Shown piece by piece: positions 4,571 through 6,812 of a DNA stretch of 12,753 nucleotides. A model generated the notes under the pieces. It made no database searches, was not told the DNA's origin, and worked only from the letters and a program-made list of their open reading frames with translations. The stretch covers positions 1-12,753 of the forward strand of contig JACMIS010000163.1 in the NCBI GenBank assembly GCA_014381035.1, written 5' to 3'. How positions within the stretch are numbered: the stretch's first letter is position 1; each line of letters begins with the position of its first letter. Both the position numbers and the translations under genes were made by a program. The stretch comes from Armatimonadota bacterium. GTDB taxonomy: Bacteria; Armatimonadota; Armatimonadia; Armatimonadales; Armatimonadaceae.

Positions 4571-5458
4571 TTGAGGGAACTGACCTTCACAAAAATGCAC
4601 GGTATCGGCAACGACTTCGTCGTTGCCGATTTTGTGTCACCCGACCGTCCCCTATTCACTGTGGAAGAGTTACAAAAAGCGTCACCATTCTTGTGTGATC
4701 GTAAATTCGGGGTCGGCGCGGATATTACGTTTCTGGTGCTTCCCGGTGTCGAGGGAGCCGATTTCGCCATGCGTATGTTCAACCCGGACGGCTCGGAGGC
4801 GGAGATGTGCGGGAACGGCATCCGTTGTTTCGCCAAATTCGTGTACGACCGGGGTTACACGGCGAAAACGGTCGTCACCGCACATACCCCAGCGGGGAAC
4901 AAAATTCTCAACCTTTCAATCGGTCCGGACAATAAAGTCTCGCACGTGACGGTAGACATGGGGCACCCAGGATTGACTCGCGCCGACCTGCCGATGGAAG
5001 GCACACCGACCGATACGATTATCGGCGACGGAGTGACTATCGGCGGCGAGGAGACGATAAAAATCACCGGTGTCTCGATGGGCAATCCGCATGTGATTTA
5101 TTTTGAAACGCCGGCGACTGAGGAAAGTATCAACCGTCTCGGTCCGGTCCTGGAAACGCACCCCCTTTTCCCACGCCGGACGAATGTGCATTGTGTCGAG
5201 GTGATTTCACCCGACGAGATCAAAATGCTGACCTGGGAACGGGGTGCGGGGCGAACGCTGGCGTGTGGCACGGGTGCATCCGCATCTGCGGTGGCGTCGC
5301 ATTTGAACGGCTTTACCGGGCGTCGTGTTCTGGTTCATCTCGCGGGCGGCGATCTGACAATTGATTGGCAGGACGACGATTCTGTCATGATGACCGGAGC
5401 AGCCACGGAGGTTTTCACGGCAACGATTCGGATTCCCGACTCAGTTGTTTCGCCGTAA
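4571..5458 (+). CDS. dapF: Diaminopimelate epimerase
   Basis: Converts LL- to meso-diaminopimelate, the precursor of lysine and of the peptidoglycan cross-link; cytoplasmic, PLP-independent. The 295-residue protein carries both halves of the family: FTKMHGIGNDFVV (6-18), FNPDGSEAEMCGNGIRCF with catalytic Cys80, SMGNPHVI (169-176), and ERGAGRTLACGTGASA with catalytic Cys232. Length is typical (about 275-295). The start is a TTG, supported by AAGGAG upstream and by the conserved N-terminus. The 84-nt gap after hfq holds no clear terminator or promoter, so it may be cotranscribed with miaA-hfq. Its last 44 bp overlap the 3' end of the convergent AAA+ gene. Confidence 0.97.
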   Translation: MRELTFTKMHGIGNDFVVADFVSPDRPLFTVEELQKASPFLCDRKFGVGADITFLVLPGVEGADFAMRMFNPDGSEAEMCGNGIRCFAKFVYDRGYTAKTVVTAHTPAGNKILNLSIGPDNKVSHVTVDMGHPGLTRADLPMEGTPTDTIIGDGVTIGGEETIKITGVSMGNPHVIYFETPATEESINRLGPVLETHPLFPRRTNVHCVEVISPDEIKMLTWERGAGRTLACGTGASASAVASHLNGFTGRRVLVHLAGGDLTIDWQDDDSVMMTGAATEVFTATIRIPDSVVSP

Positions 5459-6113
5459 TCGGTTTGGGAGTTCGGACGGATAGTTGGAAGAAGTCAAATA
5501 GAAATCGCTCTGTTTGCCGCAAGTTCGAACCGAACCGTTCGCGAAGAAAGACGAACGTATCCTCGCTTAGCGTCGCGCATGGCTTGTCCGGTAGCGCGAA
5601 ATAAGCGAGCCGATTCCGCAGAACGGCGTCGAAGTGGACTGCGTCAGGTATATCGAGTGTGACTGTGGCGAGGCGCACGCCGACCCTTTCGAACAGTGCT
5701 CCCAAGTCTTCATGGGAGCCGAGAAAGAGGCGGAGATCTCGTTTCTGAGAGACACCGAGCAATCGGGTGCGTTCCGGTGTGCTCAGTCGTTGCACCTCAT
5801 CCAGACAAAACCAGCAACCCCTAGGAACATCGGTCAAGAATCTGTCCGCGCCGTTCGGAATATATTCATACACGGCTGATATTCGCCGCTGTCGTGCTTC
5901 GCGCATCATGGCACGAAGCACTGACGACTTTCCGTGTCCTGCCGCGCCCAGCACTTGCAGATGAGCGTCGTCCTCGCGCTCCAAAATGGTACGGACGGTA
6001 TCAGGAACTAGAGATATTTCCTGCCATTCCGTTTCCGACAGGGCTCTGAATGGATTTCCGATAAATCCCGCGCCCCGAAGGGGCGGAGCATCGCCGACAC
6101 CAAACCGGCTCAT
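5415..6113 (-). CDS. Small AAA+ ATPase (ExeA/TniB/ORC-like)
   Basis: A 232-residue P-loop ATPase. An N-terminal NPFRALSETEW segment (20-30) recalls the NPF start of ExeA/TniB-type ATPases. Walker A is GAAGHGKSS (56-64, Lys62). Walker B is CWFCLDEVQRL (100-110, Asp105-Glu106). A sensor-1-like strand LRLFLGSHEDL (127-137) and a sensor-2-like helix GSNLRQTERFLFD (195-207, Arg199) follow. No helix-turn-helix, transmembrane or nuclease domain is visible. It starts 4 nt after the stop of the DnaA-domain-I-like gene, so the two are cotranscribed and probably translationally coupled. I infer a DNA-bound or helicase-handling ATPase working with that partner; DNA repair or transposition-type target selection are alternatives. 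It overlaps dapF tail-to-tail by 44 bp. Confidence 0.85.
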   Translation of the reverse strand: MSRFGVGDAPPLRGAGFIGNPFRALSETEWQEISLVPDTVRTILEREDDAHLQVLGAAGHGKSSVLRAMMREARQRRISAVYEYIPNGADRFLTDVPRGCWFCLDEVQRLSTPERTRLLGVSQKRDLRLFLGSHEDLGALFERVGVRLATVTLDIPDAVHFDAVLRNRLAYFALPDKPCATLSEDTFVFLRERFGSNLRQTERFLFDFFQLSVRTPKPITAKQLSRESESLP

Positions 6114-6117
6114 ACCA

Positions 6118-6762
6118 TTACTTCTTCAAACGGTCGAACAAGAGAACGCCGATAAGTGCCGCATCGGATGAGGTGTACGACGCGATTCGCTCGATCACCC
6201 GCGACAGCCCGCGCTCCTGCACATCATCCGGTTTCACAGTGGCATCCGGGTAAAATCGGTTTGTCGCTTCTTCGAGTACGTCCAGCGCGGAGTGCAGAAA
6301 ACGTGCCCGTCCCGCCGCCTGTCCCCGAAATTGCGCCGCTGTCCAGAGACGGGCGATACGCTCGTACACCTCGTCCCATGTTCCGGCGGAGGTGTTCTCC
6401 TTCTGGGTGCGTACAGCGGCTTGCTGTTGCCCGGTGGAAGCCGCCAGATCCCGTGCCTTGACATACTCCCAATCGGAGATGGTATCCCCTTCAATAAGAC
6501 GATAGGTGACAGTCTCCGTCCCTGTGACGTCGCGTACCGCTTTTTCGATTGCAAGTCGCGTCTCGAACGCAGCTAATTGCCCGGAGACTGAATCCCCGGC
6601 ACGAAATCCGACAACGAAGGTATCCCCTTCCCAGACGACCGGAACGGTGCGTTCCAATGCGCGCCATACGGGAGGCGCAATCAAAGCCATCTTGACTCTA
6701 TCTACGACTCGCGTCCACAATTCTTGTAGTCGCTGATTTTGTTCATCCGACATTTCTGTCAT
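6118..6762 (-). CDS. DnaA-domain-I-like protein, AAA+ partner
   Basis: A 214-residue protein. Residues 11-80 follow the pattern of the DnaA N-terminal domain: LWTRVVDRVKMALIAPPVW, a strand pair around TVPVVWEGDTFVVGF, then a helix (FETRLAIEKAVRDVTG). After it comes a strand-type segment ETVTYRLIEGDTISDWEYV (83-101), a Gln/Ala-rich linker (102-128), and a wholly helical C-terminal half (129-214). DnaA domain I recruits DnaB helicase and other partners; here the ATPase function lies in the next gene. The start ATG 6762 has GGGAG (6771-6775) 8 nt upstream; an in-frame GTG at 6780 is less likely. The domain match is by eye, moderate confidence. The function is unknown. Confidence 0.7.
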   Translation of the reverse strand: MTEMSDEQNQRLQELWTRVVDRVKMALIAPPVWRALERTVPVVWEGDTFVVGFRAGDSVSGQLAAFETRLAIEKAVRDVTGTETVTYRLIEGDTISDWEYVKARDLAASTGQQQAAVRTQKENTSAGTWDEVYERIARLWTAAQFRGQAAGRARFLHSALDVLEEATNRFYPDATVKPDDVQERGLSRVIERIASYTSSDAALIGVLLFDRLKK

Positions 6763-6770
6763 GCTTGGTT

Positions 6771-6775
6771 CTCCC
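6771..6775 (-). promoter_or_regulatory. Shine-Dalgarno of the DnaA-domain-I-like gene
   Basis: GGGAG on the minus strand, 8 nt before ATG 6762. It lies inside the coding frame that would start at GTG 6780, and so decides for the shorter protein. Confidence 0.6.
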
Positions 6776-6812
6776 GGCACTTTTGTTCACCGTTGAGAGA
6801 CAATCTTCCTGC

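Follow-up and report, generated by a model that had tools for sequence, protein, structure and literature searches.

Whether a DnaA-type initiator can be divided over two proteins is the question raised by a pair of adjoining genes in a 12,753-nucleotide (nt) stretch of DNA from an Armatimonadota bacterium (contig JACMIS010000163.1; this whole stretch is called the window). The pair encodes P1, a small protein with a DnaA domain I-like N-terminus, and P2, a separate AAA+ ATPase, and an earlier sequence-only reading had taken the two together for a divided initiator or helicase loader. Our overall answer, to which we give about even chances, is a different one: P1 would be a third branch of the KH-like family that comprises the C-terminal domain of DnaX (tau-C) and DnaA domain I, and a putative replisome adaptor, with P2 as a local neighbor. 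Both frames were found open on the minus strand and 4 nt apart (6114-6117), just as the reading had placed them, and in a second genome (G001, locus L001) their relatives (92% identical for P1 and 61% for P2) likewise adjoin within the same gene order. Because of these adjoining relatives, and because protein searches returned 35 P1 and 44 P2 proteins (the window's own included in each), P1 and P2 are taken to be more than chance frames. Alignment A1 held 17 of the 35 P1 matches, and alignments A2 and A5 held 18 and 43, respectively, of the 44 P2 matches.

The fold of P1 was assessed with AlphaFold2 (mean predicted local distance difference test score [pLDDT] of 88). Residues 6 to 91 run helix-helix-strand-strand-helix-strand, the order of DnaA domain I, so that the domain I pattern proposed for the N-terminus was borne out and the KH-like domain I fold was present in the prediction. 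The helical C-terminus without an AAA+ domain was recovered as well, as one long helix followed by four others. Pfam scans of 47 P1 homologues at E ≤ 1 matched DnaX_C in 8 and DnaA_N in 1; P1 of the window matched no NCBIfam model at E ≤ 1, and its PHROG matches were no stronger than E 0.54. Comparison profiles were built from the phylum's own DnaX C-termini (38 segments, from loci of which 10 had been found with the DnaX_C model itself), DnaA domain I (8), DciA (13; row L172, in the wrong frame, was dropped) and DnaG (20, with 4 of 24 loci left out). The P1 profile (A3) held 47 of 51 rows and the DnaX-C profile (A6) 33 of 38, and near-identical or twice-fetched rows occur both among the 51 P1 members and among the 38 DnaX-C segments. 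With hhalign, whose E values stand for single comparisons, the P1 N-terminal domain scored 98.2% against DnaX-C and 97.1% against DnaA domain I, and at most 4.6% against the other 11 targets (7 of them reversed profiles). Among the 51 P1 members, the DnaX-C profile matched 49 at E ≤ 0.01 in hmmsearch and the DnaA domain I profile 21, and no match was obtained with any of the four profiles at this threshold in 672 background proteins.

The strongest sequence relationship of the P1 N-terminal domain was that with the DnaX C-terminal domain (PF20964), which shares a similar pattern and a conserved tryptophan in helix 1, invariant in P1 (51/51). DnaX-C outscored DnaA domain I (PF11638) on the module in 47 of the 51 homologues, a comparison that favors DnaX-C in that its profile had 38 rows versus 8. 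In the Protein Data Bank (PDB), the DnaX-C profile found DnaA domain I (E 1.5e-7) and the gamma/tau chain 4iqj_M (E 2e-6; 4iqj is presumably the complex with the alpha subunit), and the P1 profile reached 4tps, a DnaA, at E 0.45 only. DciA (PF05258), a KH-like helicase loader, matched none of the 51 members at E ≤ 0.01 and reached 4.6% in hhalign, by which P1 as a DciA was ruled out; DnaG likewise matched 0/51. When the three modules were placed in one tree (94 columns and 76 rows, with 30 of the 51 P1 rows, from a quick search), each formed one branch, with support of 96 for P1, 96 for DnaA domain I and 82 for DnaX-C. Judged from these comparisons and the predicted fold, the P1 N-terminal domain belongs to the same KH-like family as tau-C and DnaA domain I, and by the profile matches and the single branches P1 represents a third, separate lineage of it, nearer to tau-C by score, with the smaller DnaA domain I set as a caveat.

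The architecture of P1 sets it apart from both relatives. In DnaX the module forms the end of a clamp-loader ATPase, whereas in P1 it heads a small ATPase-free protein (214 amino acids [aa]), in which a unique helix comes next and then a helical bundle. P1 also carries neither the DnaA ATPase nor domain IV (PF08299 matched neither P1 nor P2 at E ≤ 1), and relatives have DnaA as a gene of its own. A stretch specific to P1, IEG-T--DW---K-R, is conserved at residues 90 to 104, after the last strand, and in the C-terminal bundle R188 is conserved in 49/51 members, together with D/E191 and R192. The C-terminal region weakly resembles the helical end of the DnaG polymerase domain, homology not being established; DnaB_bind (PF10410) matched the P1 homologues of G019 and G035 only, weakly (E 1.8 and 2.2), and a DnaG piece at the P1 C-terminus is therefore kept as a hint only.

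We assessed the spread of P1 in 201 sampled Armatimonadota genomes, counting profile matches. A first profile found P1 in 180, several of which showed a second match, and a broader profile added 5 of 20 retested among the remaining 21, giving 185/201 overall, most with one match; the broader profile matched 8 genomes, of which 3 with weak matches in 440- to 577-aa frames were not counted (that of G058 is DnaA). The Armatimonadota range of P1 rests on this sampled phylum and a few named database matches. DnaX was above the model cut-off in 96/101 genomes (the 100/101 reached at E ≤ 1e-20 include weaker matches, maybe other clamp-loader subunits, and were not used), DciA was found in 91/101 and DnaA_N in 48/61. 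Because of these counts, P1 is placed beside, not instead of, the usual parts. By sequence, P1 is best described as an uncharacterized chromosomal protein of most sampled Armatimonadota, usually in one copy, that appears alongside DnaX-C and DnaA in relatives.

Of 30 loci retrieved through the DnaX N-terminal model, 28 encode a DnaX that retains the C-terminal domain; at least 3 of these genes were also among the sources of the DnaX-C profile. A substitution of P1 for a lost tau-C was ruled out, since the DnaX C-termini are present. That P1 is an extra and no replacement would also suit a protein that competes with tau-C and serves a secondary polymerase or repair, not the main replisome, and in one locus (L107) the P1 gene overlaps the start of a MutS2 gene. 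However, the mostly single-copy, near phylum-wide spread of P1 suits a core role, and no consistent repair neighbor was seen among 52 inspected P1 loci; we consider this alternative distinctly improbable.

Some individual P1 and DnaX_C loci deserve mention. In G100, two P1 halves lie on two contigs (C277 and C129; L211 and L215), apparently through an assembly break. Among loci L081 to L089, P1 is followed in eight (L082 to L089) by a same-strand gene that overlaps it or lies at most 6 bases away and whose product has an LGSGTSNGVP-like start; from the look of the sequence we take this gene to be an MBL-fold hydrolase and nearby genes to be a sigma factor and a PPIase. G006 has two further DnaX_C matches over the cut-off (C4:5332-5592 and C41:804-1073), both in frames of 101 aa that lie outside DnaX; one has an internal stop, and the two are either further stand-alone tau-C-like pieces or broken genes.

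Linkage between P1 and P2, set beforehand as the test of the divided initiator, failed beyond close kin. In the family of G001 (12 genomes), P1 was present in 12, P2 in 2 and an adjoining pair in 1; G002 has its P1 cut by a contig end, but a search of its whole genome turned up no P2. P2 lay downstream of P1 in 2 of the 52 loci, namely the window and its nearest relative. Across the 201 genomes P2 was clear (E ≤ 1e-11) in 14, and in 10 of the 11 with a P1 contig listed P1 and P2 were on different contigs. Nine of the 12 family genomes yielded a DnaA, among them the close relative G002, where a 302-aa open frame encodes domain IV. No DnaA was found in G001 and G145 (AAA domain and domain IV) or in G102 (domain IV only). 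In G001, DciA, DnaA_N and DnaX_C were also without a match and a DnaX-like match was cut by the contig start, and for these reasons its absent DnaA reads as an incomplete assembly. P2 became the downstream neighbor of P1 in the clade of the window, where the two may be cotranscribed, and is no general partner.

P2 itself is a separate AAA+ ATPase with a predicted initiator/clamp-loader fold. Its predicted structure (mean pLDDT 93.9) ends after the lid with no further domain, and R168 and R199 are invariant across 43 aligned sequences; the earlier description of a bare ATPase with Walker A, Walker B and sensor-like motifs thus held. At E ≤ 1, P2 matched 13 Pfam families, the DnaA AAA model PF00308 not among them, and in the fold comparison DnaA domain III was one of many near-tied rows. 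The NCBIfam Hda model (TIGR03420) gave 23.3 bits, below its cut-off of 194.8, and no single family stood out among Hda-, ORC-, RFC- and MuB-type AAA+ proteins.

If an initiator or helicase loader were divided here, P1 would supply a domain I-like docking part and P2 the ATPase motor. We now regard this as very unlikely and rejected it as a general reading: most genomes have P1 without P2, DnaA and DciA are present, tau-C outscores DnaA domain I on P1, P2 is no DnaA ATPase by sequence and P2 changes faster than P1. In G064 and G140, moreover, P2 follows a GAF/HATPase_c gene. In two genomes (L098:839-3372 and L080:6507-9040) a GAF-GAF-HATPase_c gene is followed on the same strand by a P2-type AAA+ gene, possibly a signaling locus, and in L063, L080 and L097 a gene of one cluster (its L063 member arrestin-like) stands on the opposite strand beside the P2-type gene.

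P2 as a mobile or defense gene was rejected: no P2 relative was found in plasmids, none of the P2 relative P0073 in phages (P2 itself was not run there) and none of A5 in viral contigs. With PADLOC, P1 had no match, and those of P2 were weak ("mad8"; E 0.0028). The P1 homologue P0034 is named "phage terminase Nu1 subunit" in the database; the name was not tested on P0034 itself, and P1 and two other homologues matched no PHROG better than E 0.12.

What P1 does can be approached by analogy with its two relatives. DnaA domain I is described as a protein-docking module that uses helices 2 and 3 for DiaA, DnaB, HobA and SirA (PMC5448010), and the C-terminal part of tau as docking on the polymerase (PMC4703070, PMC11470591). 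On this analogy, the most likely role of P1 would be docking on a replisome protein, with another binding site in the helical end. The KH-like module would bind a partner of its class, either the polymerase alpha subunit (like tau-C) or the DnaB helicase (like DnaA domain I), and the helical end would hold a second partner. A fuller version, in which P1 is a near-core replisome subunit of the Armatimonadota, a freed third lineage with a DnaG tail-like helical end that bridges polymerase or helicase to primase and competes with tau or DnaA for the same docking site, is tentative and rather unlikely.

Several results weigh against a replisome adaptor. No P1 was found with either profile in 15 of the 201 genomes (1 was not retested), and because some P1-negative genomes are several Mb long, P1 may not be strictly essential. 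No recognized replication gene is a conserved neighbor, and neighbors vary between genome groups (52 loci). P1 of the window matches no Pfam family at E ≤ 1, its helical end has no secure relative, and with a predicted template modeling score (pTM) of only 0.52 the model does not fix the mutual placement of the two halves. KH-like modules bind nucleic acid too, so that protein docking is not the sole option; a P1 that binds RNA or single-stranded DNA through this module and acts in RNA metabolism or ribosome assembly is, we think, improbable.

Bacterial replisomes are usually described from Escherichia coli and Bacillus subtilis. With its presence in 185/201 genomes and a docking module of initiator and clamp loader, P1 would be a candidate phylum-specific replisome part, and since DnaA domain I and tau-C are linked (the DnaX-C profile finds the former in the PDB), a single module may have been put to use on three occasions. 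No title or abstract beginning describing a P1-like protein was found in the literature, a search that left subscription papers mostly outside its coverage, so novelty is not shown.

Features of the P1-P2 locus (window coordinates)
Feature	Position	Strand	Residues	Remark
P1	6118..6762	-	214 aa	ATG 6762, stop 6118; stand-alone tau-C/DnaA domain I-like module plus helical C-terminal domain
P1 KH-like module	6487..6747	-	6-92	N-terminal
P1 long linker helix	6397..6480	-	95-122	AlphaFold2; overlaps P1-specific conserved stretch
P1 four-helix region	6124..6378	-	129-213	C-terminal; AlphaFold2
GGGAGA	6770..6775	-		Ribosome-binding-like, 5' of P1 ATG; direct reading
P2	5415..6113	-	232 aa	ATG 6113, stop 5415; bare AAA+ ATPase adjoining P1 in the window and its nearest relative
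P2 Walker A	5925..5948	-	56-63	GAAGHGKS
P2 Walker B	5796..5813	-	101-106	WFCLDE
P2 sensor-1-like	5706..5729	-	129-136	LFLGSHED; putative residue role

The window reads purA, miaA, hfq, dapF, the P1/P2 pair, aconitase-C (leuD-like), an ABC transporter, cdaA, ybbR and rhomboid, and its contig looks like chromosomal DNA of an Armatimonadota bacterium; two contig-level P1 relatives are metagenome-assembled genomes of the same phylum. A 217-aa protein at 318-971 on the plus strand was without a significant Pfam match (best E 0.18). A GTG at 6780 is a possible alternative start of P1, and the convergent dapF and P2 genes share 44 bases at their 3' ends (5415-5458).
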